Assembly (NCBI GenBank): GCA_030248065.1
Contig: JASAMV010002806.1
Span: 19,487-83,486, forward strand
Source of the DNA: Rhynchonema sp. JSB1_4
Lineage: Eukaryota > Nematoda > Chromadorea > Monhysterida > Xyalidae
Direction: 5' to 3'
DNA: 64,000 nucleotides
This document shows, piece after piece, positions 11,456-63,584 of this stretch (the stretch's first letter is position 1; every line of letters begins with the position of its first letter). The position numbers and the translations under genes were made by a program. The notes beneath the pieces are model-generated. The model had not been told where the DNA came from. It saw nothing but the letters and a program-made list of their open reading frames with translations, and searched no databases.

Positions 11456-13892
11456 GTAGTAGTAGTAGTAGTAGTACTTTTATTTCGTTTCAGACACGAA
11501 AAGGGTAAACATCAACAACCGCTCGAGGCATGGCAGTAACGATGAATACCTGGTTTTTACAATTTAGCGGCACCAATTACATAAAGAGTTGGAGTACATT
11601 TGCATGAATATAATAATTCAATAATAATGTAATAATGTAATATTGACAACGTTACACAACTGACACACACAATAATATTTACGCGCCACACCACAACACG
11701 ATATGAACATTATGCAATTTCGACTTTTCTTTCACATACAGTACATCTTCATCGCTGGACACCCATTTACAAAATTTTGAAAATTTTGACACTACAATAT
11801 CAGCAGGCAAACAGTTGTACACATTGAACATCAATACAAGAGGTGAAGAGCACAAGACAGAATATTTGCATCTGGGTACCGTAACAGCACGGGAATGATT
11901 GGAACGAGAACTTTTGCGATTTGACACAGTAGTTTTCAGTACAATAAAACCAACAGGAAAATGACGGAAACCACAGACATACATGTGCATCAACTTCATA
12001 CGCCTAGAGAAAACAATTGAGCTGTTAGCACGAACACCAAACAAATCAAGTAGGGTAGTAATCAACAGCACGATTCCAATTTCAGAGAAACAGACGAATA
12101 GAATACTTTTGAGTTCGCTCAAACAAGTCACGATCACGATTATGGGTGGGATATACGGCTTCAAAGGCATACAAGAGAACAGATTGCCACAATGTAACAT
12201 AGAAGTATCGACGAACATTCCATGAAACATCACGAAGCAACACACGATTTAAATATCCAGCATTACGTTTCACTCAAGCGCAACTAATAGTTGCGTGATC
12301 AGACATATCAAATTTGGAATCAATATCAGCAAAAGATATTTATGAGATTGCACAACAGTGACAGGCTCGGCATTGACAGTAATAGTGGGAGCAATCAGAA
12401 GTGGACTGAACTGAGTGAAATGATGGATAACCAGTGCCAACTTGAAACCACTCGGCCAAACGCCTGTTCTTACGATACGGTTCATCCAGAGCTGACAAAC
12501 CGGGAGCGATCGCCTGCGTACCTTCTTTCAGCATTTGCTAGGCGGTCGGTGCACGGGTCAAACATAACGTCCGTGCTGGGCACCACCGGGTCACCATTGG
12601 TGTTCCAGATAGGGCTCGCGCGGGAAATTTTTTCCGGCGGAATTTCGCGGGAGGGAGGGAAATTTGCGGGAAATTTCCCGTTCCCGTTTCCCGGGAAATA
12701 TTTTCGATAGTGCCATTTCCCCCGGGAAACACTGCCTGAAAATTCCCGCGGGAAATTTCCCGCGGGAAATCGGCCATTTCCCGCTTTTTCCCGTCCTTCG
12801 ACCATTTCCCGCGCAGGAATTCCAGTCAGTAATTCCCGTGAAGTTTCCCGCGGGAAACGGGAAATCGAAACGACCATATCATCTTTTGTTGGCTTTTCAT
12901 CATTAATATTTTTTGGAAATAGACTTTTTGTCTCTTTCAGCCCTGTTCAGGAGGATCAGGACCCTGAGCAATTTACTTAGACTGCTATTTTCAACTTACA
13001 ATTAGCGGCTCAGGCACTGAACTGATCAATCAGCAATTCACAGATTTAATGGCAGTGTGTGTATCCAGAATGCTCGCTTGAACGTGTCTCAGCATGAGCA
13101 GGCCTGAACTCTTGGCAAATACTCTTACAGTTGTTGTTCGTCCTCCAAAGGGCAACTTGACCTTTACTTTTACATTGCCAGTTTACATCAACAAACAACA
13201 GGAATTGTCGTCCACTTTTTAAAACATCTAAAGGAACGCTTATAGCGGCCAGCCATTTCATTAGTAACTTCTCAAACCAAAAAATTGGGGCGGGAACTTT
13301 ACGGGAAATATCTGTTTTCCGCGGGAAATTCCTATTTTCAGCGAGAAATTTAAGGGAAATTCCTGTTTTGCGAGGGAAATCTGCGGGAAATATCGCCATT
13401 TCCCGCGGGAAATTTCCCGTTTTCCCGCATTTCCCGCGGGAAATTTCCCGTCCTTCAAATAGGCATTTTCCCGCAATTTCCCGTCCTTCAAAATTCTGAA
13501 AACCATTTCCCGCGATATTTCCCGTCCTTCAAAATTCCAAACTTCCATTTCCCGCAAGAAGTCCCGGACCCTTGGGGAAAACGGGAAATTTCCCCAACTT
13601 TTCCCGTCCTTCAAAAAAAATTTCCCGCGCGAGCCCTAGTTCCAGACACTGTGGAAGTAGGTTGCAAGCAGCTCAACTTTACCCTGACTGTCAGCAACCA
13701 ACTCACCATCAGCAGTCTGGAGTGGCGGCAACTCAGACGCCAGTTTGCCCGTGTAGTCATAAAAACTATGGCAGAGCTGTTTGGGATTACTGAGATTTGT
13801 GATGTTTGAACGCAAATACCCAGCCTGTGCCTTTCTGACTTCATTTCGGACAGTCCGGCGCAGGTTGTAGTAGTGTGTTCAAAAGGTGGTCA
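11456..13892 (-). mobile_element. CR1/jockey-like LINE copy 1, 5'-truncated, split by hAT
   Basis: The LINE runs on the minus strand from 13892 to 13647 and, past the hAT insertion, from 12609 to 11456. It ends in AATAAAAGT(ACT)n. It encodes decayed RT C-terminal sequence (SHKYL, then a one-base-class frameshift). The same lesion (atatcagcaaaagatatt) occurs in copies 2 and 4, while copy 3 has caccaagatatt and stays open across it. The RT-upstream block near 12490 reads EPYRKNRRLAEW. The copy is not functional. Family assignment rests on block order and the microsatellite tail. Confidence 0.75.
12610..13638. mobile_element. non-autonomous hAT-type transposon, copy 1 (1029 bp)
   Basis: The termini are inverted repeats beginning TAGGGCTCGCGCGGGAAA. 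The 8-bp target duplication GTTCCAGA lies at 12602-12609 and 13639-13646; 8 bp is the hAT signature length. LINE copy 3 has the unoccupied site at 31866-31873. The subterminal 270-350 bp at each end consist of GGGAAA/TTTCCCG repeats in many inverted combinations, likely binding sites for a transposase. The central 400 bp is non-repetitive and has no recognisable transposase. The left half of a second copy has been lost at 16288. Confidence 0.85.
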
Positions 13893-14863: not shown

Positions 14864-16592
14864 CTAGTAGTAGTAGTAGTAGTAGTAGTACTTTTATTTC
14901 GTTTCAGACATGAAAAGGGTAAACATCAACAACCGCTCGAGGCGTGGCAGTAACGATGAATACCTAGGTTTTTACAATTTAGCCGGCACCAATTACATAA
15001 AGAGTTGGAGTACATTTGCATGAATACAATAATTCAATCTTATAATAATGACAACGTTACACAACTGACACACACAATAATATTTACGCGCCACACCACA
15101 ACACGATCTGAACAGTCTGCAATTTCGACTTTTCTTTCACATACAGTACACCTTCATCGCTGGACACCCATTTACAAAATTTGGAAAATTTTGACACAAC
15201 AATATCAGCAGGCAAACAGCTGTACACATTGGACATCAATACAAGAGGTAAAGAGGACAAGACAGAATATTTGCATCTGGGTACCGTAACAGCACGGTAA
15301 TGATTGGAACGAGAACTTTTGCGATTTGACACAGTAGTTTTCAGTACAATAAAGCCAACAGGAAAATGACGGAAACCACAGACATACATGTGCATCAACT
15401 TCATACGCCTAGAGAAAACAATTGAGCTGTTAGCACGAACACCAAACAAATCAAGTAGGGTAGTAATCAACAGCACGATTCCAATTTCAGAGAAACAGAC
15501 GAATAGAATACTTTTGAGTTCGCTCAAACAAGTCACGATCACGATTATGGGTGGGATATACGGCTTCAAAGGCATACAAGAGAACAGATTGCAACAATGT
15601 AACATAGAAGTATCGACGAACATTCAATGATACATCACGAAGCAACACACGATTTAAATATCCAGCATTACGTTTCACTCAAGCGCAAGTAATAGTAGCG
15701 TGATCAGACATATCAAATTTGGAATCAATATCAGCAAAAGATATTTATGAGATTGCACAACAGTGACAGGCTCGGCATTGACAGTAATAGTGGGAGCAAT
15801 CAGAAGTGGACTGGACTGAGTGAAATGATGGATTTTGGTTTTGTTGGGATTGATTGTGAGTAGCTTTGATGAGAAATGCTCGGTGATTGAGTTCACGTCT
15901 GCCTGCCCTCAATTTCAGTTTTGGAGAGGAATTAGCGTACGCACCATATAATTGAGGACCAAGCACAGAACCCTGAGCAACACCAGAAAGAACAGGCAAA
16001 GCCCGAGAATGACGCGAACCTACACTGACAATTTGAGAGCGATCTGTTTTAGAACTTATGTTTCTATTCCATAATCATGAGCAAAACAAAGATGGAAGCA
16101 GAAATGGAATGAATATTACTACAGATTGGGAGTTTAGCGATAGGACGGTAGTCGGATGGTTTGCACATGGTTACTTTGGCATTGGAGTAACCAGTGCCAA
16201 CTTGAAACCACTCGGCCAAACGCCTGTTCTTACGATGCGGTTCATCCAGAGCTGACAAACCGGGAGCGATCGCCTGGGTACCTTCTTCAGCAATTCACAG
16301 ATTTAATGGCAGTGTGTGTAACCAGAATGCTCGCTTGAACGTGTCTCAGCATGAGCAGACCTCAACTCTTGGCAAATACTCTTACAGTTGTTGTTCGTCC
16401 TCCAAAGGGCAACTTGACCTTTACTTTTACATTGCCAGTTTACATCAACAAACAACAGGAATTGTCGTCCACTTTTTAAAACATCTAAAGGAACGCTTAT
16501 AGCGGCCAGCCATTTCATTAGTAACTTCTCAAACCAAAAAATTGGGGCGGGAACTTTACGGGAAATATCTGTTTTCCGCGGGAAATTCCTAT

Positions 16593-17236
16593 TGTGATCT
16601 GCTGCCGTCCTAGGGAGCTCGTCGACGGGGCAGATGCACTTGAGCACGCCACCTTCTGTCACTCGCCAGACAGTCAGAAACGCGCCCGGACCAACAAGAG
16701 TCACGCCAAAGTAACCGTCTCAGCGCGCGAGTCAGCCCTGGACCAAAATCCACACGCCTCGCGATGGCAACTCGGACGGCGCGGCTTGATCCTGGTGACA
16801 ATCCAGTCACCCGCTTTCCTGCAATGAAATGAAGCAAGCAAACGGTCTCAGGCAGGCAAGCACAAAAACCGACAAGACAAGCCCAGCAATCTAGCTGGCT
16901 GTTTCGCTTCCACGTATTGCACGAAAAGCACCCCGAAGTCGACTTCGACAGCACGTTTTACGCTATATAACGAATAACGGAAATAAATGAATAAAGGATA
17001 GAATTAACGGCAATAATAATATCAATATCCAATAAAATATCGCGACTCCAAAACGTCTCCGACGAAACACGAAATTACACTGAATTACGAGAAGAGAGAA
17101 GAGAGAAACGGCGATAAAGTCCATCGCTGAGCCATCCATTTGAATTTCCATGCTCAGTCACAGTCAACACACTCGCAGACGACTCTCACAGTCTGTTTTG
17201 ACGACGATGTGAAGACGGCATATGTCCAATGTCACA
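16593..17236 (-). repeat. 3' LTR of the Ty3-like element
   Basis: 644 bp, TGTGAT...GTCACA in plus orientation. On the minus strand it is immediately preceded by the polypurine tract. It lacks 18 bp (near 17100) present in the other LTR. Confidence 0.92.
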
Positions 17237-17527
17237 TCTCCCCGCACCAGTTGCTTCAAATGCCCTCATTTGATCGATGTTGAATGAAGAAGAATAGAAG
17301 CTGTTCGTGTCCACCCGGCCATAGTTGGAGTAGGCCTTGAAGAAACCGTCGAACGAATAGGGATCGCAGATGGCAACGACGACGAATTGAATAGCACACC
17401 AGCGATGAAGACAGATTGAATTGAATAGAGTTGTCGTGTGGATATAGCAGTCAGGATACGGGTTTTCACCAGTCACCGAAGTGGGTTTCACCGTACCCTG
17501 CCGAAGCAAGAGGTGTGGGTTACTCAC
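17186..17527 (-). CDS. possible frameshift extension of the giant ORF
   Basis: This minus-strand frame overlaps the giant ORF's stop and is open for about 113 codons. It crosses the polypurine tract and ends about 50 bp inside the 3' LTR. Its composition is protein-like (many Tyr, Phe, Asn; C-ending codons like the ORF upstream), with a hydrophobic stretch CAIQFVVVAICD. The last codons of the giant ORF contain U UUG GGG (17533-17527), which has the X XXY YYZ form of a -1 slippery heptamer, directly before the UGA. Slippage would join the two frames. Alternatives are a plain frameshift mutation, or use of GTGAGT at the same place as a splice donor. Confidence 0.4.
   Translation of the reverse strand: MSNPHLLLRQGTVKPTSVTGENPYPDCYIHTTTLFNSICLHRWCAIQFVVVAICDPYSFDGFFKAYSNYGRVDTNSFYSSSFNIDQMRAFEATGAGRCDIGHMPSSHRRQNRL
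17237..17250 (-). other. polypurine tract
   Basis: The minus-strand sequence GGTGCGGGGAGA directly abuts the TGTGACATT start of the 3' LTR, the expected place for plus-strand priming. Confidence 0.75.
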
Positions 17528-20500
17528 CCCAAATCCCAGACGAACACCCGCAGGTGATACACCGCTCGTACCGGTTTAAGTCCTGACAGATAATAGAGCA
17601 GCTGCAAGCCCATAGGCGCAGGCTGATCCACGATGGAGACGGTTTCGGCAGCGAAGGTGGACGGCAAGCTGGGTAGACGACCAGCCAACCCCTCGAAGGT
17701 TGTCACCTCAGGTGAAGAAGCCCTGTCCGGTGACCACCAGAACATCACGACACCAGCGTCGTCGACACCATGTCCATTGGTCTCATAGAACTCGTCAATC
17801 CATGCCTCCAGCTCCTCCAGGTCACCGATCGGTTTCGGGCTGAGCATGAACGTCAGATGATGATTGCGCTGTCGCAGCTCAATCATCATGTCCACAATGC
17901 GGGTCAACGCAATGCGGCATTCGACCATTTTCGACGTCCAGACTCCCTGGAAACGGCCCGTATACACCTGATACCACATGTTGCCCATGTGTGCATGTCT
18001 GGCAGGTGCACCAATCGCATTTTGGTACTGTTGGATCGTGCCCTGGAACTGGCTGGGCTCAATGACCTCACGCGTGGCATCATCCAGCATGGGTTCATAG
18101 CATTGCGGATTGCAACATTCGTCCTCCTGAGTCTCATCATTCCAGTACACGTCAGCCGTGCAACGTTCACAGCACTTGATGACATGGAACACGACCCAGG
18201 GTACGACGGGCATGTCGTACAGATTCATTTTCACGCCGGTGTTTGGCGCCATCGTCGGGTATTTGGCCATGTTGAGCTGCTCTTGCAAAGTCAGCTTGTT
18301 CCAACCCGACACGCGTTCTTTGGCACTCAAGCCATCTTTGTCCGGGTTCAACTGAACAGCGAATTGTGAGTACGGACGGCCCTCATAGTGGCCATGTGTC
18401 AAGCCCCGTGACAATGGGTCAATCAGGTTGTACTCATCCATCACTCGAATGTAGATTTGTGATCGCGGTTTCAGAAATTTGAGGGACACGCGATATTCGG
18501 GTTTGAGTGCAGGATCGTACCAGACCACATCATCAGGCGTCTGTGCATAGGTCTCCTCATGCAAGGCCTCAAATCCGTCTGAGTCTGAGCGGATTTCACC
18601 AGAGCCCTGCGATGGTGGTTCGTTCACAGAATCCACGTCTTCGGCCTCAGTCTGTTGCAACGGTGAGGCCTCCGGCTCTTCCATAGCCAGCTCACCACCG
18701 TGCACCGGTTCGTCACCGATCATTCTGCGCTGAGCCTCAAACGTGCGCAGCTGTTGGTAACTGCGTTGCAACATGTTCACAGTTTCTTGTGGCTCGCAAT
18801 TCATCAAGTCACCAGCTGACTGCAGCAGCTTGTAAGCCACGGTCGTGTCATCTTCGGCCTGTGCGCGCACTATCGTTTGGTATCGCTTGCCACACAGCGA
18901 AATCACTTGCTTAGCCCAATCACGGACTGGCGGACTAGCATGATTCAGCAAGTCGACAATGGTCTGATATGAGGTCGGCACGCCCGGCGGCAAAGCAAAT
19001 GCCTGGGCCATGTGCATGCCGATCAAGCAGTCAGCATGTGCCTCAATGTTCGATTGAGTTGGTCGGCCAAATATGGTCGGCGTGTTTGGTGCCGACAACG
19101 GATCAGTCAACGGCATGGGCTTCAGCCGATGTTTCATGGCAGTGATTTGCGCGTTCAGAATATCACACAGGCGCAACATCTCTTCGCCTTCAGCCTGCCA
19201 AATTTCCTTGTCCACAGCCTGGGCCATCATGAACACCAAGTACAGATGGTACAGGGTCACTTCTGAACCCGCTGGCTCTGCGGACTGACTGACACGTTCA
19301 ATCAACGTGCGGGCTTTGTCGACCCAAGCCTTGACGTCCTGTTTTGACTGCGGGATATCGTCCCATTTCAACTTGAACTGTTCGAACGTGACGAGTCCGA
19401 ACTCGCTTTCGCGCTGTGGCATTGTCTGACGTGCCTTGCGCAACCGTTCAGCACACGAATCAGCAGCCTGATCATCAGGTTCAGCTGTCGTGAACACGAC
19501 CTCACCAGCGTCGGTTTTGTTCACCAGAGCCTGCGCCATCTTGCGCACCGAATAAGCGCTCAAGCCACAGGTCGGCTCGTTCTGTTCATGCCGAATGGAA
19601 TTGTCGGCCAACGCCAGTGCGGCTTGCAGCGAACTGCCAAGCTCCTCCAGTGAACCCAGTGGCAACCTGGGCGAGTCACCAGTGTATCGTGGTGGCCAAT
19701 CTGTCTGACGATTGAACTGATATGCCGGCAGATTTTTCAAGTGACCGGCCAAATGCATGTAGATAGTGCACACGGCCACGCGTTTCGACTCCTCAGTCTT
19801 AGCCGGCATACTCATGTAGCCGCGCGACAGTGGATTGTGGAGCCGTTTGTGATGACCATAACGCAGGTCATGCAGCACAAAGAAGGCAAAATTCAGTTCC
19901 TTCAAGTCAGCGTCAGTGACCACTTTCTGATGCACTGCACCACCGGTCTTTTTGTACCATTTCGCGGGCACTTTGGTACGTGTCTGATTGTACCTCAAAC
20001 GGAACAACTTGCGTTCCTCATCCTGATCAGACACCGAATCCTGCTTGCTCGTCGGCACACAGTCCTTCAGCAGACGTGGCTTTTTCATGTGCAACAGATG
20101 CACATTGCCGACACTTTGGGGAACCACAGTCTGGTTGTCATATTTCAGTGCCAATGTTGCATAGGCCAACTGCACAGTTGTGGTGTATCGCTCACCACTC
20201 AGAAACGGCAGTTTGGACGTCTCCATGTAGTCACTCATGGCATCTGACGCCAGTATCACGGACATGTGCTGTGTGTGTTCGATCGGTTTCATGAAATCGA
20301 TCTCGGGAACACCAAACTCAACCCGATCGTTCGTGATGGCAGCCGTACGTTTGCTTTCAAGCATGGCTGGTTGTTCATTCAATCGGTCTGCAGCCGACGC
20401 CAGCACATATGCATTGCCACTCACAAGCGGCACATTGATTTCGGGATCAATCTCGAACCCGGTCCACATGTGCATTTTGTACTCCTGCGCCTGATCCGAA

Positions 20501-23448
20501 GAACAGAGCGCCACAGCCACGTGATTGCACACCAGTTGTGTGTAATTCGAATTGTCAGACGTGGCGAAGTACATGACCGGTGTACTGTCAAACGGTTCGG
20601 TCAGACCTTGCGAGTCAATCGCAATGTATGGGGACCGAAATTCCTCCACCGGTGCACCACTTCGGTACAATGAGCGCTTGTACACGTTCGGCTTCATCAC
20701 ATTCATGTACAGCGGGCCAGCCAATCTCGACTCGGCCGCATGGTTGAGCAAGGCGAAACAGGCCATCGGGTCCCGTTCGCCTGCGGTGTTCAGGCTGTTC
20801 TCCACGCCCACCGTGCTGATGGGCTGCATCAGTTCACAACACACATGCACGCTGCGCAGATAATATTGCAGCATCAGATCACCAGCCTCCAGCAACAACG
20901 CTGTGGTAGGCACTTTTGATGGGTCCCTGGTGCCCATGACTGCGGTGCTGATCTTAGCACCAGCCAAATTGCAGAATTCACGGCCCACTTCGACAATACG
21001 CAGCTCAACCTGCTGTCGATCCAGTGGCTTGTTTGTGGCCGTCATTTCGTCTGTCAGGATTTTGGAGAACGATTTTGCACAGTGCAACACTGTGGCCAGC
21101 ACCAAGTCGACAGGTGCCTCGTTCTCGCGCCACGCGATTGGTTGTTGTTTCAGATCTTGTTTGAAATCATCACGTGCGTTCAGCAGCACATCAGGCGCTT
21201 CAACGCCATTCATGCACGTGAGTGGATTGGTCAAGCGTCCACTTTCAACGAACTGCAGCATGGTTTGCAGCGAACCACGCAAAGGACGCATAATTTCGTC
21301 ATCGTACCGTTTCGGGTCACACACAGCAAGCACGTACATGCAATCAATGCCCTCTTGCACGTCTTGTGCGGCATACCAGTACTTGCACTGTGTGGATTCG
21401 TCGTTCAAATTGCCCATGTGCATACGGTCCAGCCAGCCAGCATGGTACATGTCTGCACCTGGCACCTCACCGGCCGTATAGGCAAAATCACACGGTTTGT
21501 TCTCAAGATACGTGCTGCTCGTATAGCGACGCATCTTGTCTTTCTGGGCCTTCATCGTGTGGCTGTCACGCAAAATATGCAATGTGCCCAATGTCATCAT
21601 CTGGTGCGATGGGCCACCATGTTCCTCATTCATGCTCATGGACATTGGCAATTTGCGCGAATCAAACACGATCGCGGACATGTCACAGCCAAATGCGCGA
21701 GCAAACGCAACCTGATCACCGTGTTTGCGATTGCGACGGTCCTGATCATGGGTACCGTGCATGTAGAACACGCCCGCGTTCTGCAGGTCATTCACCGACG
21801 GATCGTCACAAAACAGCTGCTTGAACTCATCACACGGTTCGTCTGAGCCGGGTTTGTTCACACAACCCGCTTCAATGATCCACACGACACCTGTGAAGAA
21901 TGCCACCTGCAGCAGCACCAGAATGTCGTAGTCACACCATTCCTCTGTCGTGGTGTGAATCACCTCGTGTGTGGTCCAGTAGGGCAGCACGCCCCACTTC
22001 TCCATGCACATGTGCATGAGCAGCTCGTTCGCACTTTTGGTCTTCTTTTTCAGTGCCGTGAAGAAGCTCGTATCGAAATCTGTGGACTGGAAGTGATCGA
22101 ATTCAGCATCGATCATGGCACCTCCCAGCATGCGACGAGCACGCATGGCGATCTTTGTGAACTCCACAAAATGGTCATATGAGTCCACCACAATGACCTG
22201 TTTGATCACGCCCAGTGGCCTACGTGCGGCCAACATGCACTGATACCAGCTCATGATCAGATTATACATCATCGTGATCTTGGCTGATGTATTCTGGGCA
22301 CGCGCACCATATTCCAGCGTGACAATGCCCTTCAAGGCAGTCACCATGTATTTGTGCGTGTTTTGAATGCCGATGTAACTGGCGGCCTGTTCCATCTTGT
22401 GCAGCACTGCCTGCAGCACTTCAGTCGACAATTCACGAGCCGTACACGCCAAGTACAGCACTCGTGTGTTTTCGAACATTTTGGCCATGCCCCGATATGA
22501 ATTTGGCACAGCGCACGGCTCATTGGTGTTTGCTGCATTGCACGCACCATCCCAGCCTGTGCGCATCGGGTCCAACATAGCCATATGGTGGTTCGGCATT
22601 CGTTTGTTGACCGAGATCACACCCGGTTTCATGGCATCGAACCAACCGATTTTATTGTTCTTGGCATCACGGCCGAAGAAACCCTTCGTGGCCACGGTCA
22701 TGTGGTCCACCTGTCGCAAATCGGTGTTCTTTTCACGTTCAATTTCACTGAACGGCACTGGCAGCATGTGCCCGGTCGACAGGGCCTCCTGACGCTCCTC
22801 ATAGCGCCGGCTGATGTTCAAACCGTCAACCGGTTTGTGGCGTTGTGCGCGTCCAAACAGGTCCACCTGACCAATGTGCAACACCTTGCACAAACGACGC
22901 AAGCGCAGCAACGGGCTGCCAGCAAACACGCCCCGCAACCAGTCACTGTGGATGCGGTCGGGCTGTTTGTCGTTCACCATCACCATCGGTCGATTCAGTG
23001 GATCCGGGTCCCAAAAATTCACCTCTGAGGACCCAGGGGCCCGGTCCATCCTGCGGTACTGTTCCAGTTTCAGGCCCAGTCGGTGCAACGGCTCACCTCT
23101 GAGCGTCACAGTGCCTTGTGGTGTCTGGAATTTCATCACACCAGCACCTTGCGAGTTAGCAACACTCGCGTCTGGGGCAGGTTCATGTGCCCCGGCACTG
23201 GGATCCGGCACCGTTTCCATCTGGGTATCGGTGCCCTCACTGGCACCTGCAGTCGTACTGGAACCTGTCGTCACCGGGTCGGTGTGGGTGACGGACTCTC
23301 CGGCAGCAGCCTGCATCTGCTCCTGAGTCTCATAGATGTCAACCTCGTCACCACCGCCCAACAAAGCCTCTTCTTGCTCTGCAGTCAACCCCGTCTCACC
23401 TGGATCTGCTCGTTTTCGGGACTGCGATCTTCGGCCCCGTTTGCTCAT
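17524..23448 (-). CDS. giant uninterrupted ORF, 1974 aa, unknown function, carried by a Ty3-like element
   Basis: A single 5925-bp frame runs from ATG at 23448 to TGA at 17524-17526. The N-terminus is basic (MSKRGRRSQSRKRA), followed by a Gln/Thr/Ala/Pro/Glu-rich low-complexity region to about residue 105. A long globular region rich in Met, His and Cys follows, without membrane segments. Residues about 1580-1641 are an acidic Ser/Glu/Asp linker. The C-terminal domain contains a probable zinc site, CERC with CNPQC about 16 residues later, near residues 1760-1783. I recognise no gag, envelope, polymerase or enzyme motif. The ORF occupies the position where env lies in some LTR elements. Its GC-rich codon use resembles the pol ORF of the same element rather than the surrounding LINEs, suggesting long co-residence. 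An intact frame this long implies recent activity or selection. A capsid-like protein captured from a large RNA virus is one untested idea; a relocated structural gene of the element is another. Confidence 0.85.
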   Translation of the reverse strand: MSKRGRRSQSRKRADPGETGLTAEQEEALLGGGDEVDIYETQEQMQAAAGESVTHTDPVTTGSSTTAGASEGTDTQMETVPDPSAGAHEPAPDASVANSQGAGVMKFQTPQGTVTLRGEPLHRLGLKLEQYRRMDRAPGSSEVNFWDPDPLNRPMVMVNDKQPDRIHSDWLRGVFAGSPLLRLRRLCKVLHIGQVDLFGRAQRHKPVDGLNISRRYEERQEALSTGHMLPVPFSEIEREKNTDLRQVDHMTVATKGFFGRDAKNNKIGWFDAMKPGVISVNKRMPNHHMAMLDPMRTGWDGACNAANTNEPCAVPNSYRGMAKMFENTRVLYLACTARELSTEVLQAVLHKMEQAASYIGIQNTHKYMVTALKGIVTLEYGARAQNTSAKITMMYNLIMSWYQCMLAARRPLGVIKQVIVVDSYDHFVEFTKIAMRARRMLGGAMIDAEFDHFQSTDFDTSFFTALKKKTKSANELLMHMCMEKWGVLPYWTTHEVIHTTTEEWCDYDILVLLQVAFFTGVVWIIEAGCVNKPGSDEPCDEFKQLFCDDPSVNDLQNAGVFYMHGTHDQDRRNRKHGDQVAFARAFGCDMSAIVFDSRKLPMSMSMNEEHGGPSHQMMTLGTLHILRDSHTMKAQKDKMRRYTSSTYLENKPCDFAYTAGEVPGADMYHAGWLDRMHMGNLNDESTQCKYWYAAQDVQEGIDCMYVLAVCDPKRYDDEIMRPLRGSLQTMLQFVESGRLTNPLTCMNGVEAPDVLLNARDDFKQDLKQQPIAWRENEAPVDLVLATVLHCAKSFSKILTDEMTATNKPLDRQQVELRIVEVGREFCNLAGAKISTAVMGTRDPSKVPTTALLLEAGDLMLQYYLRSVHVCCELMQPISTVGVENSLNTAGERDPMACFALLNHAAESRLAGPLYMNVMKPNVYKRSLYRSGAPVEEFRSPYIAIDSQGLTEPFDSTPVMYFATSDNSNYTQLVCNHVAVALCSSDQAQEYKMHMWTGFEIDPEINVPLVSGNAYVLASAADRLNEQPAMLESKRTAAITNDRVEFGVPEIDFMKPIEHTQHMSVILASDAMSDYMETSKLPFLSGERYTTTVQLAYATLALKYDNQTVVPQSVGNVHLLHMKKPRLLKDCVPTSKQDSVSDQDEERKLFRLRYNQTRTKVPAKWYKKTGGAVHQKVVTDADLKELNFAFFVLHDLRYGHHKRLHNPLSRGYMSMPAKTEESKRVAVCTIYMHLAGHLKNLPAYQFNRQTDWPPRYTGDSPRLPLGSLEELGSSLQAALALADNSIRHEQNEPTCGLSAYSVRKMAQALVNKTDAGEVVFTTAEPDDQAADSCAERLRKARQTMPQRESEFGLVTFEQFKLKWDDIPQSKQDVKAWVDKARTLIERVSQSAEPAGSEVTLYHLYLVFMMAQAVDKEIWQAEGEEMLRLCDILNAQITAMKHRLKPMPLTDPLSAPNTPTIFGRPTQSNIEAHADCLIGMHMAQAFALPPGVPTSYQTIVDLLNHASPPVRDWAKQVISLCGKRYQTIVRAQAEDDTTVAYKLLQSAGDLMNCEPQETVNMLQRSYQQLRTFEAQRRMIGDEPVHGGELAMEEPEASPLQQTEAEDVDSVNEPPSQGSGEIRSDSDGFEALHEETYAQTPDDVVWYDPALKPEYRVSLKFLKPRSQIYIRVMDEYNLIDPLSRGLTHGHYEGRPYSQFAVQLNPDKDGLSAKERVSGWNKLTLQEQLNMAKYPTMAPNTGVKMNLYDMPVVPWVVFHVIKCCERCTADVYWNDETQEDECCNPQCYEPMLDDATREVIEPSQFQGTIQQYQNAIGAPARHAHMGNMWYQVYTGRFQGVWTSKMVECRIALTRIVDMMIELRQRNHHLTFMLSPKPIGDLEELEAWIDEFYETNGHGVDDAGVVMFWWSPDRASSPEVTTFEGLAGRLPSLPSTFAAETVSIVDQPAPMGLQLLYYLSGLKPVRAVYHLRVFVWDLG

Positions 23449-24665
23449 CTCGGCCTTGTCACTTGCTGTCCAACGATGTTGTTGTTCCTCACAGCACTTG
23501 ACGTCACAAAATCGAATGCAATTAATGATAGCAGCAATCGAAAATTTGACTCTGAAAAGTGGAGTGAACCATCACTTTGCGCTCTCACGCACAAACATCA
23601 CAACAAAGCAAAACGCGCGAGCGAACAGTGTGGGCTGCCGCATCCATTTTCACAAGCCGCCTCGACCGGCATAATGGCTTTAAAGTGCTCCCCGCACAAC
23701 AGCGTCAGCCTCACACCGCATGAGCGAGCTGCAAGCCAAATTCACGGTCGTTCTCAACAGGAACGCCCCTTTTTGGCCTCAAAATGTGGAACTGCAACAG
23801 TGCAGCCGTCAGTGGCCACAGACAGAACAAATGACTGGGTGCCTCAGTGACACAGACTGCCAGGCCCCGGGGGTCGATCGCCCCCCAGGGTCTTTTCGAC
23901 CTGGCCCTAGGCAAAACACGCCCAGAAATGGTATTCCGCCCATTTTCACAGACTGCCACAGCTGAATTAGCTGTTTTCCTCACAGTTTTGAGCCAAAACA
24001 TAGGCAAAACGTTCGGGCCGGAGTGGCCAACTCCCGGCTTTTTGGGGTTTTCGACCTCGCACGTCTGCGGAAACGAAAAATCAGAGCAAAACTCAGCTCC
24101 CCCCCAGTTGCGCAACACCAACGCAACATTTTCACAGACGTTTGCGGCATTTCAGTGGCATCGGCCCACCTCTCCCTGCGATCCAGCGGGATTCCTGCGA
24201 TCTAAAACGTTATTGCAAATGAAATGAGAAAAACAAAATGCGAAACGAAAAGGAATTTCGTCTCCCTTTTTCGCAGAATTTCTCTTTCTTTGTTTTGCAA
24301 TTTACGGTCCACGGACCGTAAAGTCTCGTTTCGGTGCGTCACTTTCCATGCGTCTGGGGTCACCACACCTGCAGTGGGGATAACGCATTCGCACATGCAA
24401 ACAAAACATGGCGCACGTAAGCGCCAACAAAACGGAACTAAAACAGCGGTTAGTTCAACGTAAAAGGCTCGTTTCGACAGAGCCAACACAAAATTTAACG
24501 AAAATAAAAGACACAGCCCGAGCAAAGGGCTGGTCAACATAAAATCACGTGATAAACTCAACGAAATAAAGTCAAACTCAAACATAACGTATAAAATAAT
24601 AAAATTATAAGCAAAATAAAGTGTGTACTATATACAATATGTACAATTTTGCTCCTCCGTCAGAG
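23449..24665 (-). other. 1.2-kb stretch between integrase and giant ORF
   Basis: No frame here looks coding on the element's strand. It includes a hairpin-prone GGGGGTCGATCGCCCCCC near 23875. An AG preceded by a pyrimidine tract (cacttttcag, minus strand, near 23570) could serve as splice acceptor for a subgenomic giant-ORF message. AATAAA-type motifs occur near 24590. The leader has a matching donor-like GTGAGG at about 27494. Splicing is inferred only from these short motifs. Confidence 0.35.
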
Positions 24666-25403
24666 TTACTGCTCCGACGCGTCCGTGCCCCGCAAGTTGT
24701 AGCGCGCATTCGACTTTCTGCCGCTTTTCACAACTTGCTTCAGCTGAAACTTCTGCGTTTCGGGCACATACACAACCGAGTGACCAGTCCACACCTGTTC
24801 ATGCGAAATCTCGTCGGCACAACGCGAGATTTTATCGAGATTCACTGTGAATCGCTGGGTATCACCCTCATCCAGCCGATACACCTCGATCGTGTTGTTT
24901 CTGAACACGCGCGTCACCATGAACGGACCGGTGTGACTGCGAGCGAACTTGTAGTCCTCGCCTTTGGCCACTTTCGGGTCATACACCCAGACCCGTTCAC
25001 CAACCACAATCGGTTTCAATTTCGCCTCGGCTTTGGCGCTCATTCGTTTGTGCCTGAGCTCGACTTTGTCCAGTCCGAGCTGCACTTCGCGGTAGATTTC
25101 GGGAATCGAGCGCACCATTCGGGTCACATAGTCCGGATTGTCATTGTACTTCTGCAGTACACATTCGTCAAACACCGTGTTGGCCGGCAGACGCATCGGT
25201 CGACCATGCTCGACGAAGAACGGACTCAGACCGGTGCTCACTTGTGGCACGGCATTGTAGTACAGAAGCACCATCGGCAGCACTTCGTCCCAGTCGCTGT
25301 TGCCAGGCGGCAGCGCGCGCGCCAGCATGTTGATAATCGTCTGATTGGCTCGTTCGACAAACCATTGACTGGGGTGGTATGTAGTCGTCACGTTGTGTTT
25401 CAC
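24666..25403 (-). pseudogene. integrase C-terminal part, frameshifted from pol
   Basis: The frame continues the integrase after a frame break at about 25400. It contains the third catalytic residue region (WFVERANQTI, Glu of the DD-E triad) and an HPSQ block. It also has the GPY/F-type domain (HTGPFMVTRV) and ends in the Arg-Tyr-Asn-Leu-Arg motif common at Ty3/gypsy pol C-termini. The break is caused by a few extra bases between the second and third catalytic residues. The lesion would block integrase function in this copy unless bypassed. Confidence 0.85.
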
Positions 25404-27478
25404 TTAACATTGATACCCTCGTGCAGTTTGCCAGTGAACTGTGCGCCCTGATCTGTGACGCACACGCGCGGCACGCCGTGTTCACGAATGTACTGGATGT
25501 ACATGTCAATCACGGTCTCAGCGGCCATGTCCGGCATCGGATAGGCGTTCACGTACTTCGAAAACGCATCAACCAGGACCAGCAGATAGACATTGCCCCT
25601 TGACGTCATCGGCTTCAACGTCAGAATGTCCATGTGCACTCGTTCGCTCGGCGCGAACGTTCGTTCCAACGAACCAATCGGCGGTTTCAGCCGTCGATGC
25701 TGACCCGACACAGTGGCACAGTCAAAACACGATGCGTAGTGTTTGGACGCGTCCTTTAGCATTCCCAGCCAATGGAACTCGCGCCTCAGCCACATGGTCA
25801 TTTTGTCGACGCCGAAATGACCACCCAGTTCATGCACCTCCTTCAGCAGGTCCTTTTGCTTGCTTTTCGGCACACACAACTGCACTCGACCACCTTTGTC
25901 ATACACGTGCCGAATGATACTCGTGTCGTCCACGAAATATTCACCGAAATGTTTTTCGATGTATTTGTCAAATTCGGTTTCCGGCTCGGGCAGCGGTTTC
26001 AACGGATGCTCCAGCTTGAGCTTCAACCGCGCCAAGAATTCATCGCCGGCTTGTTGTTCGATGATCTTGTCACGAACATCGGTACTGACCTCTTCGGTCG
26101 TTTTGCCGGTCAGCTCGACGTGCATCTCATTCGCGTCAGGCACGTCATCGTTCTCCGGGATCGTCGTCAGCGACGGTGCCTGTTTTATGCGACGTCGACG
26201 CATGCCGACTTTCATCACCGTGACGTTCTCGCATTCGTCACGCAATTGTCTGAGGTCCGCCTCTTTCGTGATCGGCAGACAGTCACCATCAGACGCGCAG
26301 TCACAGCGCACTTTGTTCACGTGCGCCACGAGTTCACCCTCGTTTTCGGCCTCGTCAAACAGCTCATCGACGTCAAACTCGATGTCGTCATCGTCAAACT
26401 CGTCGTTCGACCAATAATCCGAGTCACAGTCAGACTCGTCAGCAGCACACGAGTTCACAGCCACGTCAGCCGGCTCGGCAGTGTTCTTTTCCTGCCATTC
26501 GATCGCTTGCTGTTCGGACTCTTTGATCATGCGATCGATCTCGTTCCGGAACCAGTTGGCACGATCGATCTTGTCTTTCGGATCGTGCAGGTCTTTCGGA
26601 ATGCGGCTGAGGCAGTCGGGCACATGATTGCCACGACCGGGCGTGTACACCACTTTTGGGTTCATCATCGCGATGCTGGTGACCCACTTTTCGACACGCT
26701 TGTTGCCTCGCATGCGCTGATTCATGCAATCTTGCATGGCAACATGGTCAGTCACGACCAAAATGTCGTGTCCACGCAGATAATTGTCGAACTTGTCCAG
26801 AGCCCACTTGATGGCCAGACATTCGAGTTCGGTCGCGCTGTAATTCGACTCAGCGGCGTTGGTGGCGCGTGATGCATAGGCCACCGGATGCAGCTTGTCA
26901 TCCGAGCCGATCTGTTCGAGCACGGCACCCAAACCAGCCGAACTGGCATCCGTGCGCACCACCCATGGTTTATCCATGTCGGGATAGACCAGCATGACGT
27001 GTTCACTCGTCAATCTGCGCTTCAACTCATTGAACGCTTCATCCTGCTGCTTGGACCAGCGGAATTGTTCATCGACCTTCATCAGTCGGTTCAGCGGCGA
27101 TGCGATCTTCGAGCAGCCGGGAATGAACTGTCGATAAAAGCCGACCATTCCCATGAAGCGACGCACGCCCTGCTTGTTCACCGGCGGCTTCATGTCACAA
27201 ATTGCCGCCACTTTGTCCGGATTCGGGCGAATGCCCTCGGCGTCCAACACGAAGCCCAAATATTTGACTTCGGACTGCAGGAAGTTGCACTTCTTCGGCT
27301 GCATCAGCAAGCCGGCCTCTTCCAACCGTTCAAACACGCGTTTCAGCACTTCCATGTGCTCCTCGACAGTCTGGGTCGCGGTTTGTGTGACTTTTACCGA
27401 AGGTTTGGCCTCAAACCGACACTCTCTGTGAACCAGCGCAACGTGGCCCACAAGGAATATACGCACAAATGTACGCAA
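25400..27478 (-). pseudogene. Ty3/gypsy pol lacking the RT catalytic core
   Basis: The frame begins without an ATG at the RT thumb (VKYLGFVLDAEGI, VRRFMGMVGFYRQFI). RNase H follows, with catalytic-site blocks VVRTDAS, ATELECLAIKWAL and LVVTDH. An acidic spacer comes next, then the integrase HHCC zinc finger (HELGGHFG...CFDC) and the core with Asp residues in VHMDIL and VTDQGAQFTG. Sequence upstream of the thumb is missing: only about 100 bp separate it from the primer-binding site, so gag, protease and the YxDD-bearing palm have been deleted. The frame then shifts at 25400. No autonomous activity is possible from this copy. Confidence 0.9.
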
Positions 27479-27494
27479 ATCAACTTGCCCTCAC

Positions 27495-27574
27495 CTCCCC
27501 CTCTCAGAAGGTCTGACCCCAGACCGGCTCCTTGGCCGTAACTGCGGGTTGGTTCACTTGTCGGGCTCACCACT
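27495..27574 (-). other. primer-binding site and leader of the Ty3-like element
   Basis: On the minus strand the LTR end (ATCACA) is followed by AG and then TGGTGAGCCCGACAAG, a primer-binding site starting with the TGG expected to pair with a tRNA CCA end. About 45 bp further lies a near-palindrome (ggtctgaccccagacc in plus orientation, 27515-27530). The same leader, with the palindrome restored to full symmetry, recurs in the tRNA-bearing miniature elements at 45747-50769. A donor-like GTGAGG sits at the end of the leader. Confidence 0.75.
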
Positions 27575-28236
27575 TGTGATCTGCTGCCGTCCTAGGGAGC
27601 TCGTCGACGGGGCAGATGCACTTGAGCACGCCACCTTCTGTCACTCGCCAGACAGTCAGAAACGCGCCCGGACCAACAAGAGTCACGCCAAAGTAACCGT
27701 CTCAGCGCGATAGTCAGCCCTGGACCAAAATCCACACGCCTCGCGATGGCAACTCGGACGGCGCGGCTTGATCCTGGTGACAATCCAGTCACCCGCTTTC
27801 CTGCAATGAAATGAAGCAAGCAAACGGTCTCAGGCAGGCAAGCACAAAAACCGACAAGACAAGCCCAGCAATCTAGCTGGCTGTTTCGCTTCCACGTATT
27901 GCACGAAAAGCACCCCGAAGTCGACATCGACAGCACGTTTTACGCTATATAACGAATAACGGAAATAAAGGAATAAAGGATAGAATTAACGGCAATAATA
28001 ATATCAATATCCAATAAAATATCGCGACTCCAAAACGTCTCCGACGAAACACGAAATTACACTGAATTACGAGAAGAGAGAATTTACGATTTAGAAGAGA
28101 AAAGGAAACGGCGATAAAGTCCATCGCTGAGCCATCCATTTGCATTTCCATGCTCAGTCACAGTCAACACACTCGCAGACGACTCTCACAGTCTGTTTTG
28201 ACGACGATGTGAAGACGGCATATGTCCAATGTCACA
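27575..28236 (-). repeat. 5' LTR of the Ty3-like element
   Basis: 662 bp, TGTGAT...GTCACA in plus orientation, flanked outside by CTAT. It contains a TATATA-like motif (cgctatataacg) and is nearly identical to the LTR at 16593. Confidence 0.92.
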
Positions 28237-28797
28237 CTATTTTCAGCGAGAAATTTAAGGGAAATTCCTGTTTTGCGAGGGAAATCTGCGGGAAATATCG
28301 CCATTTCCCGCGGGAAATTTCCCGTTTTCCCGCATTTCCCGCGGGAAATTTCCCGTCCTTCAAATAGGCCTTTTCCCGCAATTTCCCGTCCTTCAAAATT
28401 CTGGAAACCATTTCCCGCGATATTTCCCGTCCTTCAAAATTCCAAACTTCCATTTCCCGCAAGAAGTCCCGGACCCATGGGGAAAACGGGAAATTTCCCC
28501 AACTTTTCCCGTCCTTCAAAAAACATTTCCCGCGCGAGCCCTAGTTCCAGACACTGTGGAAGTAGGTTGCAAGCAGCTCAGCTTTACCCTGACTGTCAGC
28601 AACCAACTCACCATCAGCAGTCTGGAGTGGCGGCAACTCAGACGCCAGTTTGCCCGTGTAGTCATAAAAACTATGACAGAGCTGTTTGGGATTACTGAGA
28701 TTTGTGATGTTTGAACGCAAATACCCAGCCTGTGCCTTTCTGACTTCATTTCGGACAGTCCGGCGCAGGTTGTAGTAGTGTGTTCAAAAGGTGGTCT

Positions 28798-30180: not shown

Positions 30181-32060
30181 CTTTTATTTCGTTTCAGACA
30201 TGAAAAGGGTAAACATCAACAACCGCTCGAGGCGTGGCAGTAACGATGAATACCTAGGTTTTTACAATTTAGCCGGCACCAATTACATAAAGAGTTGGAG
30301 TACATTTGCATGAATACAATAATTCAATCTTATAATAATGACAACGTTACACAACTGACACACACAATAATATTTACGCGCCACACCACAACACGATCTG
30401 AACAGTATGCAATTTCGACTTTTCTTTCACATACAGTACACCTTCATCGCTGGACACCCATTTACAAAATTTGGAAAATTTTGACACAACAATATCAGCA
30501 GGCAAACAGCTGTACACATTGGACATCAATACAAGAGGTAAAGAGGACAAGACAGAATATTTGCATCTGGGTACCGTAACAGCACGGTAATGATTGGAAC
30601 GAGAACTTTTGCGATTTGACACAATAGTTTTCAGTACAATAAAGCCAACAGGAAAATGACGGAAACCACAGACATACATGTGCATCAACTTCATACGCCT
30701 TGAGAAAACAATTGAGCTGTTAGCACGAACACCAAACAAATAAAGTAGGGTAGTAATCAACAGCACGATTCCAATTTCCGAGAAACAGACGAATAGAATA
30801 CTTTTGAGTTCGCTCAAACAGGTCACGATCACGATTATGGGTGGGATATACGGCTTCAATGGCATACAAGAGAACATATTGCAACAATGTAACATAGAAG
30901 TATCGACGAACATTCAATGAAACATCACGAAGCAACACACGATTTAAATATCCAGCATTACGTTTCACTCAAAGGCAAGTAATAGTAGCGTGATCAGACA
31001 TATCAAATTTGGAATCAATATCAGCACCAAGATATTTATGAGATTGCACAACAGTGACAGGCTCGGCATTGACAGTAATAGTGGGAGCAGTCAGAAGTGG
31101 ACTGGACCGAGTGAAATGATGGATTTTGGTTTTGTTGGGATTGATTGTAAGTAGTTTTGATGAGAAATGCTCGGCGATTGAGTTCACGTCTGCCTGCCCT
31201 CAATTTCAGTTTTGGAGCGGAATTAGCATCCGCACCAGATAATTGAGGACCAAGCACAGAACCCTGAGCAACACCAGAAAGAACAGGCAAAGCCCGATAA
31301 TGACACGAACCTACACAGACAATTTGAGAGCGATCTGTCAAATAGGATTTCAGTAGTTTTACGAGAGAGTCAGGTACACCATATTCATCAGGCAAACATT
31401 GCAACAACAACTAATGGGGTGTTTTGTCAAAAGCATTCGCAATGTCGAAATACACAGCAGTGACATGTCCTGATTCATTGAGGCCTTTCGTGACAATCGT
31501 GTTGAAACACATCAGCGCGTCCGTGGTGGAGCAACTGCACACGGAAACCGAATTGGAAGTCTGAGATGTTGGCTGTGATGCAGGGCTAGAGCAGAGATTT
31601 GACATGTTTTTTCGGCTATTTTACAACAGATTGAGAGTTTAGCGGTAGGACGGCAGTCGGGTGGTTTGCACATGGTTACTTTGGCATTGGAGTAACCAGT
31701 GCCAACTTGAAACCACTCGGCCAAACGCCTGTTCTTACGATACGGTTCACCAGAGCTGCCAAACCGGGAGCGATCGCCTGGGCTCCTTCTTGCAGCATTC
31801 GCTAGGCGGTCGGTGCACGGGTTAAACATAACGTCCGTGCTGGGCACCACCGGGTCACCATTGGTGTTCCAGACACTGTGGAAGTAGGTTGCAAGCAGCT
31901 CAGCTTTACCCTGACTGTCAGCAACCAACTCACCATCAGCAGTCTGGAGTGGCGGCAACTCAGACGCCAGTTTGCCCGTGTAGTCATGAAAACTATGCCA
32001 GAGCTGTTTGGGATTACTGAGATTTGTGATGTTTGAAAGCAAATACCCAGCCTGTGCCTT
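30145..32060 (-). mobile_element. LINE copy 3, RT region and 3' end
   Basis: The (AGT)n tail lies at 30145-30181. Going upstream on the minus strand are the RT thumb and C-terminal part (open across the site that is frameshifted in copies 1, 2 and 4), GVAQGSVLGPQL, motif A (TAVYFDIANAFDK) near 31420-31460, and the RT-entry blocks near 31730. The FADD segment is missing as in copy 2. The copy carries the empty hAT site GTTCCAGA at 31866-31873. It is cut at 32060 by the composite-LTR element; its endonuclease part lies beyond at 37832. Confidence 0.78.
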
Positions 32061-32070
32061 AAGTAGGGAG

Positions 32071-33562
32071 TGTAGGAAATTTCTGCCATTAGTAATTTCC
32101 TAGTGAATTGTTTGCCCCATGTGCCAATACTTTGGGGGTGACTTTGTGTGCGGCACGCCACTTTGTGTCGCTAATTATCTAATTGTTCTGATTTCCTTTC
32201 CCCCGATTGGGGCTTTCGCAAACATCCTGTTCTGTACCTATATAATCTGTGCTCTTTCTTTAATTCTTTAGTTGTACCGTTTGTGACTTTGCTTTACCAC
32301 TAACCATGACAATAAACTTACAAAACCTACAACGAGACGACTGTATGAATCCTAAGCAACAAACAACAGGACATTTTTTTTGGTGGCGATTCGCGTGTCA
32401 CTGCCGAGCGAGTGCCGTCGTCTGTTTACGATGACTCTGTTGCGGTTCTGGCGCAGTCCGGTGCGACAACGCGTGAACTCATCGCCAGGGTGGACACGAT
32501 GCACTCTAGGTTTAGGCCTAGGCAAGGCTACGTGTTGTGTGTTGGTGTGAACGATGTGACAAATGGCAACACCATCCAATCACTCATTCATTCTCTCCAA
32601 AAATTGGTTGCTGTTTGTCGCATGCGTAGCCCAAATCTCAAAATCGGTCTCGTGCCATTACCAGTGATCAATTCTGACACCCAACTGTACAATAGGTACA
32701 ATGACATGATCATTGACTCATTCCGTAGGGATCGCGACGTCTTCATACCTCGGGGTCCTTATAGGAGTGACAATGTTGACAATAGGTACAATGACAACAA
32801 TGACCAAAATTCTCTCTGACATTGGTGTGCTCATGGGTATGTCCATTGTGAAGACATAAATTTTGTCATGTATTTTTTCACTCACTTGTGTTTGTTGTGT
32901 ACCCCTTTCTGGCGACACCTTAAAGCTCACATTTTGCTGTTGGTGGGAGTGTGCTGACTTTTTTATGTTTGGGTCACCATGTTTTTATCTTGGTGCGAGT
33001 TATTGTCTTGTATTTTTTCATTCTGCTTCTTTGGTATTATGCCTACTTTCTTCTAAAGTAGGGAGTGTAGAAAATGTTGACTATTTTCTGACTTTTCTGG
33101 CATCAGTATGCCATGTTAGTATTCTAGCATTAGTGTGTGCCCATGCCTTTGTACACCTATAGCGGATGCCGCTTGTGCTTGCTTGGGGCTTGTGTAAACT
33201 ACTAATTGCGCCCCCTTTGGTCTCTTCTTGTGCGCCCCCTTTTGGGGCAACTTTGCCGCGTGTAATTAGATGTTTGCTTTCTGTTGTCTTTCCTGTTTGG
33301 GCGTCTTGCCGTTGCTTCCTGCTCTGACTTTGTCACTTCTAAGATTTCGACTCTACTGAACTCTCGTGTATTTTCTTGGCGTGTCCTTACCTACGACGTT
33401 GACGTAAACTTGCTACACCAACCACTTTGGCTCCGTGGCTCTACTTTCCTTACAAGACAAGTCATACACCAACAAGAGAGCAACGCAAGACACCACATAA
33501 CCGCAACGACAACCTTTGCGACAATACCGACCAACACACGAACACCAAAGAAGTCTACTACA
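32071..33562 (+). repeat. left composite LTR (SGNH copy 1)
   Basis: It consists of a 261-bp first segment (32071-32331, TGTAGG...CCTACA), a leader with an ATG, the SGNH ORF, a trailer ending in aaagtagggag, and a 497-bp last segment (33066-33562, TGTAGAAAATG...CTACTACA). The inner aaagtagggag/TGTAG looks like a second PPT-LTR boundary, so the LTR may have arisen by fusion of two LTR types. Confidence 0.72.
32345..32868 (+). pseudogene. SGNH/GDSL-type hydrolase ORF inside the LTR, copy 1
   Basis: The frame contains block I Gly-Asp-Ser (GDSR at 32385-32396). Near the middle lies GVNDVTNG, the block III Gly-x-Asn-Asp of SGNH esterases, with a following KIGLVPLP strand. Block V should give Asp-x-x-His. 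At that point this copy has DNV followed by a short inserted stretch copied from an upstream motif (aataggtacaatgac), so the His is lost and the frame shifts. The nearest upstream ATG (32345, beginning MNPKQQTTG) is out of frame with GDS because the intervening T run has 8 bases. Esterase domains are known in CR1-type ORF1 proteins, but here the gene lies inside an LTR. Confidence 0.7.
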
Positions 33563-33584
33563 TTTTTGGCATCCCCTGCGGGAG
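33563..33584 (+). other. primer-binding site of the composite-LTR element
   Basis: TTTTTGGCATCCCCTGCGGG follows the LTR end. The same start (TTTTTGGCATCCC) follows the LTR fragment on the minus strand at 4443. TGGCAT also starts the candidate sites of the two miniature elements at 6991 and 56665, suggesting one shared primer tRNA ending in ATGCCA. Confidence 0.6.
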
Positions 33585-34297: not shown

Positions 34298-34308
34298 TAA
34301 GTAGGGAG

Positions 34309-34615
34309 TGTAGGAAATTTCTGCCATTAGTAATTTCCTAGTGAATTGTTTGCCCCATGTACCAATACTTTGGGGGTGACTTTGTGTGCGGCACGCCACT
34401 TTGTGTCGCTAATTATCTAATTGTTCTGATTTCCTTTCCCCCGATTGGGGCTTTCGCAAACATCCTGTTCTGTACCTATATAATCTGTGCTCTTTCTTTA
34501 ATTCTTTAGTTGTACCGTTTGTGACTTTGCTTTACCACTAACCATGACAATAAACTTACAAAACCTACAACGAGCGACTGTATGAATCCTAAGCAACAAA
34601 CAACAGGACATTTTT
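34309..34615 (+). repeat. internal copy of the LTR first segment plus leader
   Basis: The 261 bp at 34309-34569 match 32071-32331 and 36347-36607. They are followed by the same ATG-containing leader (ATGAATCCTAAGCAACAAAC). The junction after the leader's T run differs: here envelope sequence follows, whereas SGNH sequence follows in the other two copies. Confidence 0.85.
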
Positions 34616-34627
34616 CCCTTCTTCATC

Positions 34628-50769: not shown

Positions 50770-50770
50770 T

Positions 50771-53139: not shown

Positions 53140-54272
<1,133 letters not shown>

Positions 54273-56438: not shown

Positions 56439-56443
56439 GTTGT

Positions 56444-63579: not shown

Positions 63580-63584
63580 ACAAC

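Follow-up and report, generated by a model that had tools for sequence, protein, structure and literature searches.

What does a retrotransposon do with an open reading frame (ORF) of 1974 codons placed downstream of pol? The question is raised by a 64,000-nucleotide stretch of DNA from the nematode Rhynchonema sp. JSB1_4 (contig JASAMV010002806.1, positions 19,487 to 83,486; hereafter the window, which sits in contig C1705 of a host assembly of 204 Mb in 5,747 contigs), where an element with long terminal repeats (LTRs) carries such a frame at 17524-23448 on the minus strand. Judged by its relatives, this frame is a truncated third ORF (ORF3) that stays open by happenstance. We consider it probable that it derives from the giant third ORF of a Ty3-type family, and that the central domain of the protein is a DEDDy-type 3'-5' exonuclease, likely trimming the 3' ends of RNA or cDNA in the element's own ribonucleoprotein. 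An earlier note on this DNA had reported a long stop-free frame after integrase with a codon composition like that of pol, and both observations hold: base shuffling of the element interior, repeated 200 times, gave no frame longer than 298 codons, and the relative synonymous codon usage of ORF3 correlates with that of pol (r = 0.85; G+C at third codon positions 0.63 versus 0.68-0.69).

ORF3 copies, linkage to pol and selection

A search of the assembly with the window ORF3 protein, in which 24 of 175 candidates were scored, returned 29 matches. Three close copies, at 96-97% identity, match residues 1-1903 of the window protein and lie in frames of 2,401, 2,406 and 2,157 codons, the last of which is stopped by the contig end; counted from the ATG equivalent to that of the window, ORF3 of the close copies comprises 2,360 and 2,361 residues. 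Across the fuller copies the length of ORF3 is 2,360-2,410 codons, and stop-to-stop frames of at least 2,000 codons surround the match at 12 loci, the window included. The full element, at ~19 kb, is a sum across different copies, none of those read being complete. C1532 and C3381 contain a 5' LTR, gag-pol in one frame (2,543 and 2,640 codons from stop to stop, respectively), a 1.2-kb spacer and an ORF3 that reaches the contig end, and the leader downstream of the primer binding site is matched in C1532 only. In C217 and C3362, ORF3 is followed by ~1.1 kb and then by the 3' LTR, and C437 holds an ORF3 fragment flanked by two LTRs. The gag-pol of C1532 (L020) contains reverse transcriptase (RT), RNase H, integrase and CCHC knuckles, with Retrotrans_gag below the cut-off; neither a protease family nor a dUTPase domain was listed in the scan of this one gag-pol. 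An extra CCHC-like knuckle (CIMCKQPGHEVKNCP) is found near the gag N-terminus of C3381 (L024), separate from the two Pfam-matched knuckles of the L020 gag-pol. At C217:91226-102101, two ORF3 copies stand head to head at the contig end and pol is not matched in between; this may reflect a rearrangement or an assembly effect.

The family extends well beyond these copies. Subfamily B (C2778, 2,410 codons) is 33% identical over 1,934 residues to subfamily A, which includes the window copy. A query with the 284-residue core of B returned 42 matches at E ≤ 1, including new groups at 23-29% identity, and the same groups were confirmed with a 766-residue query from subfamily C2 (61 matches at E ≤ 0.01). 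Sequence was read for five subfamilies, A, B, C1 (C4847), C2 (C4053) and D (C4265), further groups being known as matches, among them those in C1339, C3202, C770, C3480, C2236, C4629 and C5671; C1 and C2 share 67% identity, and the other subfamilies are 20-42% identical to the window over the core. The RNase H-to-integrase part of the subfamily A pol, used as a second query, gave 83 matches (60 of 261 candidates scored). More distant Ty3-like pol sequences (26-32% identity) occur in C631, C3942, C5611, C5345 and other contigs, and no ORF3 relative was matched there. In the resulting linkage table pol was entered for 51 contigs and ORF3 for 59, multiple matches per contig being collapsed and the last 15 pol rows and some weak or duplicate ORF3 rows left out. 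In all 14 contigs with both, pol lies upstream of ORF3 on the same strand, at a distance (counted up to the first match rather than the ORF start) of 0.48-2.54 kb in 13 of them and ~10 kb in C2149. The pol-linked ORF3 covers subfamilies A, B, C1 and C2 as well as one C-like group.

ORF3 is under strong purifying selection. The ratio of non-synonymous to synonymous substitution rates (dN/dS), determined by the Nei-Gojobori method across the length common to the four longest A copies, was 0.077 for C217/C3362, 0.055 for C217/C3381 and 0.053 for C3362/C3381, and 0.113-0.125 for the window against these three; against C1532, for which 364 N-terminal codons were used, it was 0.149-0.215. The corresponding values for pol were 0.057-0.068. 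The ratio in the active lineage is probably lower still, because inserted copies would decay neutrally. Alignment codons 300-900, which contain the predicted nuclease, show the lowest number of non-synonymous changes (per 300 codons, 0 and 2 for window/C3362 and 0 and 0 for C217/C3362), and the N-terminal 300 codons and the region past 1,500 show the highest. The recurrence of ORF3 after integrase in every contig where both were matched, together with a dN/dS well below 1, supports the earlier note's proposal that ORF3 is a resident gene of the element family. Neither element copies without the ORF nor a host-gene match emerged from these genome and protein searches.

The predicted exonuclease domain and the remainder of ORF3

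No significant homologue of ORF3 was found among 5.8 billion proteins with either a single sequence or an A+B profile (E ≤ 1), nor in Pfam, PHROGs, the PDB (sequence and profile) or viral contigs; the searches were limited by words or filters, and absence from them is not proof. Weak matches to UGGT (PDB, E 0.36), RBM3 (E 0.045), three PHROGs (E 0.067-0.41) and the Pfam families SR-25 and Neuromodulin_N were dropped as chance-like, and a YscD Bon-like domain in C1 and C2 (E 0.0005-0.002) was dropped as below the cut-off. Likewise, the PF01612 (DNA_pol_A_exo1) profile did not match ORF3, which is therefore not filed in that family; the profile gave 8 matches in the whole genome, none of them at an ORF3 locus.

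When six sequences from the five subfamilies were aligned, 36 columns proved invariant. They include D447-x-E449, D578, F586-G587, D596 and Y692-x3-D696, an order that we took to be the ExoI/ExoII/ExoIII layout of DEDDy exonucleases, and that was tested afterwards. Alignments A6 and A8 were relied on; A4 and A5 were unused, and A7 was set aside because ExoII is shifted there. The predicted domain spans residues 411-706 (21331-22218, minus strand), as placed by the alignments, hhalign and a model of subfamily D. Both the ExoI motif, D447-x-E449 (22102-22110), and the ExoIII motif, Y692-x3-D696 (21361-21375), are invariant in A6 and A8, and the two signatures of the DEDDy class, D-x-E after a hydrophobic strand and Y-x3-D, are present. 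In other subfamilies ExoI reads GFDMEHD or GWDAEMD. The ExoII context is GDQVAFARAFG or TDERAYWDCFG, and ExoIII reads YAAQD or YAASDALYITD.

The assignment was examined with hhalign, using as target E. coli RNase D together with eight relatives carried on plasmids, two of which are annotated as exonuclease/polymerase. Two segments were aligned in the expected order and with the catalytic residues matched: ExoI, along with the strand and helix before it, and ExoIII. The first fell on D28/E30 of RNase D and the second on its YAAAD155; a third, weak alignment in the first run fell on the FG...D block past ExoII. The controls were column shuffles and one reversed profile, with no unrelated protein family used: the top score was equalled by 1 of 200 shuffles and the chain by 0 of 200, and the reversed profile scored 15.8. 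Shuffling the column order reproduced the motif pattern in 1 of 20,000 trials, the pattern having been written down after it was seen. A structure model of subfamily D, which was picked after the motifs had been seen as the most canonical-looking, is of low confidence (predicted local distance difference test, pLDDT, 40.0); its best structural match is EXD2, and the other top matches are cellular DEDDy exonucleases (Nibbler/MUT-7, WRN, RNase D and Rrp6). The hydrophobic residues 509-527 would, in the same fold, form the strand pair following ExoI. The central domain of ORF3 is predicted to have a DEDDy-type 3'-5' exonuclease fold, and we infer that it is catalytically active.

Several observations weigh against this assignment. 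ExoII (D578, 21715-21717), which is invariant in A6 and A8 but not in A7, was not recovered by hhalign against the RNase D-like profile and is the least sure placement of the five residues. Moreover, the structure model of the window sequence itself (pLDDT 44.8) gave no sensible Foldseek match. The motifs are also widely spaced, at 131 and 118 residues versus 57 and 70 in E. coli RNase D.

Outside the predicted domain, the N-terminal 130 residues are variable, and residues 760-1,900 received no assignment from Pfam, PDB or protein searches. The cysteine cluster reported earlier (CERC...CCNPQC) is present at residues 1760-1783 (mapped as 1760-1784, 18097-18171, minus strand) and is partly kept in subfamily B, but it is not the C-terminus of the family, which is absent from the window. 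In the fuller A and B copies, a C-terminal block running from A residue 1921 to ~2018 (45-54% identity between A and B) holds a CCHC-like knuckle, C-x2-C-x3-H-x2/4-C (CAVCAHSHTKC, CAVCMHNHTAEKC), and is followed by an RG-rich or RS-rich low-complexity tail. Knuckle and tail appear to resemble nucleic-acid-binding parts, and we infer that the tail binds nucleic acid, recruits the enzyme to element RNA and aids element replication. An exonuclease encoded by ORF3 would then be delivered by tail and knuckle to element RNA or to reverse-transcription intermediates, where it may digest 3' ends in genomic RNA maturation, in the clearing of abortive ends or in an attack on host small RNAs. Among cellular DEDDy enzymes, Nibbler and MUT-7 work in small-RNA pathways and Rrp6 in the exosome. 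A more far-reaching proposal, which we hold to be unlikely, is that a whole Ty3 superfamily possesses its own giant RNA-processing enzyme, a nuclear protein of 2,400 residues with a MUT-7/Nibbler/EXD2-like exonuclease at its core, plus a zinc knuckle resembling those of gag and an RS/RG tail, acting against host small-RNA silencing or in element RNA maturation; this would be a counter-defence of a kind unknown in retrotransposons.

Alternative explanations and known systems

The long motif spacing is what might be seen if the DEDD fold served as a non-catalytic RNA-binding scaffold, and Maelstrom and EXD1, described in passages of PMC5408684 as inactive DEDD derivatives that retain RNA binding, offer a precedent. 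However, all five subfamilies read keep the same acidic residues and the same ExoIII tyrosine, and decayed enzymes would not be expected to retain them, which makes such a scaffold rather improbable. Slightly less credible again is a CERV-like protein, that is, a nuclear export factor for unspliced element RNA without nuclease function, by analogy with Cer1 of C. elegans. ORF3 and CERV share a position after pol, a lack of recognisable homologues, a cysteine cluster and a gag-pol in one frame without a stop, and CERV is required for genomic RNA export according to parts of PMC10309623. The same parts describe CERV as a protein of 517 amino acids with a predicted three-domain H-M-G layout and exons shared with gag; ORF3, set apart from it by this description, is a single frame of ~2,360 codons with a conserved core bearing exonuclease-like motifs.

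The earlier note had raised the capture of a viral structural (capsid or envelope) gene, a suggestion in keeping with the large size of ORF3, the failure to find a homologue, its env-like position and the presence in the window of another element encoding a phlebovirus-type glycoprotein; env occupies this position in gypsy-type retroviruses. Conversely, searches of Pfam, PHROGs, the PDB and viral contigs gave nothing significant (best PHROG E 0.067; best PDB E 0.36), the invariant residues fit a nuclease layout and the tail is RG/RS-rich. As regards the features of an envelope protein (signal peptide, fusion protein domain and C-terminal membrane anchor), the window ORF has no Pfam match and its strongest hydrophobic stretch, in a hydropathy profile of the window ORF only, is the internal one at residues 509-527; since this averages 2.2 on the Kyte-Doolittle scale, the previous statement that the protein has no membrane segment was too strong. 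With the evidence pointing to a nuclease domain, viral capture is very unlikely. Virtually no weight is left for an assembly or chance artefact, or for a host gene caught in one insertion: the window contains just one copy, but copies elsewhere in the genome rule this out, given the 12 loci with open frames of 2,000 codons or more, dN/dS of 0.053-0.125 and the presence of pol beside ORF3 in each of the 14 contigs where both were matched.

The exonuclease reading has its closest known counterpart in the bdelloid rotifer LTR elements Juno and Vesta, whose ORF3 encodes a DEDDy exonuclease shared with Athena elements (Rodriguez, Kenefick and Arkhipova 2017, PMC5408684, in passages that also cover mut-7, Maelstrom, EXD1 and Rrp6); the giant nematode ORF3 is nonetheless a very different case. 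As described there, a third ORF past pol is likewise read as an RNase D-like DEDDy exonuclease, in several families and through remote-homology detection. The ORF here differs in its length of ~2,400 codons, in ~2,000 additional residues and in the presence of both a CCHC-like knuckle and a tail rich in RG/RS. Its active site keeps DEDD, which according to the same passages is changed to DEED in bdelloid ORF3, and a dUTPase, reported in three of four bdelloid lineages, was not among the domains listed in the one gag-pol scanned here (L020). On these descriptions, the DEED and dUTPase features being absent, the ORF3 family is not filed as a Juno/Vesta-type member. The passages further report no significant departures from neutrality in bdelloid extra ORFs (measured on env- and GDSL-like ORFs), as opposed to a dN/dS of 0.05-0.13 here. 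A further paper, PMC5718144, shares terms of the DEDDy third-ORF literature in the part available. Searches of the open-licence papers in PubMed Central, which left subscription papers and preprints outside their scope, turned up DEDDy third ORFs of LTR elements for bdelloid rotifers, and no giant DEDDy ORF.

CERV, which acts in the nuclear export of Cer1 genomic RNA (Sun et al. 2023, PMC10309623, in part), is comparable as an unusual non-envelope protein downstream of pol, with a cysteine-rich loop and with gag and pol in one frame; it is translated from a spliced five-exon mRNA with gag-shared exons. Orchid Ty3/gypsy elements with an m6A demethylase domain, described in part of PMC9289625, have similarly gained an RNA-directed enzyme domain, but a different enzyme and in a plant host. 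With EXD2, Nibbler/MUT-7, WRN, RNase D and Rrp6 the predicted domain shares the order and identity of the active-site motifs; it differs from these cellular enzymes in its longer spacing, its place inside a giant element protein and the lack of a significant match in the PDB profile search. At 4-5 times the size of CERV, and with subfamilies split to ~20% identity, ORF3 is old and clearly kept by selection. The family makes testable what a retrotransposon gains by carrying an exonuclease, and suggests that ordinary enzymes overlooked by profile searches can lie hidden in the large orphan ORFs of elements.

The window copy and its surroundings

A single LTR element on the minus strand fills 16589-28240 of the window. 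Its borders had been drawn from LTR termini, a CTAT target duplication and an empty site, and all three are borne out: the duplication is read at 16589-16592 and 28237-28240, the LTRs (3' LTR 16593-17236, 5' LTR 27575-28236, in element sense) start with TGTGAC and end with ATCACA, and a paralogous repeat without the element has CTAT once, at 13332-13335. The LTR pair differs by 8 substitutions in 645 aligned columns (Kimura two-parameter distance 0.0125), plus 18 gap columns. A purine-rich tract beside the 3' LTR (17237-17248) is a candidate polypurine tract, and TGGTGAGCCCGACAAG next to the 5' LTR (27557-27572) a candidate primer binding site. The TG...CA termini and the short target duplication are those of a Ty3/gypsy LTR retrotransposon, as are the pol domain order of RT, RNase H and integrase and a best PDB match to Ty3 pol (for the window pol and its relative C1532/L020).

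The Ty3-like element is thus real, as claimed, but the absence of gag, protease and most of RT had escaped the earlier reading, and it cannot be called intact. Compared to C1532, ~5.36 kb is missing, comprising the end of the leader, gag, the protease region and RT through YLDD inclusive; in the alignment to C1532 the junction (27380-27391) carries 10 filler bases and corresponds to a loss of ~5,356 bp. The remaining pol (25400-27379; Pfam, PDB and relatives) consists of the RT tail past YLDD, RNase H, and the integrase H2C2 and core as far as a frameshift near 25403. Its frame, 25400-27478, begins within the final quarter of RT, and Pfam RVT_1 is matched at profile positions 160-204 of 205 only. 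The C-terminal part of integrase follows in a different frame (24666-25403), and then the 1.2-kb spacer up to ORF3 (23449-24665), common to the relatives at 83-93% identity. ORF3, a C-terminally truncated copy of the ~2,360-codon family protein, is cut at ~17766: the following 239 bases match C217 at 96.7% past its ORF3 stop, across a gap of ~1,972 bp, and the last ~80 codons of the frame (17524-17765) are read from DNA that fuller copies have 3' of ORF3. Splicing was rejected as the source of both deletions, GT...AG borders being seen at neither junction and the 5' junction carrying filler bases. Because gag, protease and RT up to YLDD are missing, integrase is frameshifted and ORF3 is cut, the window copy is a defective derivative, a non-autonomous deletion remnant without gag, protease, the RT catalytic core and the ORF3 tail.

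Elsewhere in the window, direct repeats of 1.5 kb (32059-33562 and 36335-37831, 98.6% identical) surround the element with the phlebovirus-type glycoprotein (32059-37831). Its Gc fusion domain lies at 35231-36376 (E 1.9e-72), a weak Gn-like frame at 34586-35206 (E 3.5e-4, below the cut-off), and a GDSL-like hydrolase frame in the first direct repeat at 32349-32816 (E 6.6e-10). Self-match offsets indicate tandem arrays of ~137-bp units at 44568-47628 and of ~531-bp units at 47935-50771, and a trinucleotide repeat at 53801-54406 is open in several frames (poly-V, poly-S, poly-L, poly-T and poly-Y). Matches to the tRNA family occur on the minus strand at 59328-59398 and, barely above the cut-off, at 43462-43529. 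The window ends with one arm of an inverted repeat (56025-58812 and 61211-64000; 2.8 kb, 99.5% identical), which may be a palindrome or an assembly feature.

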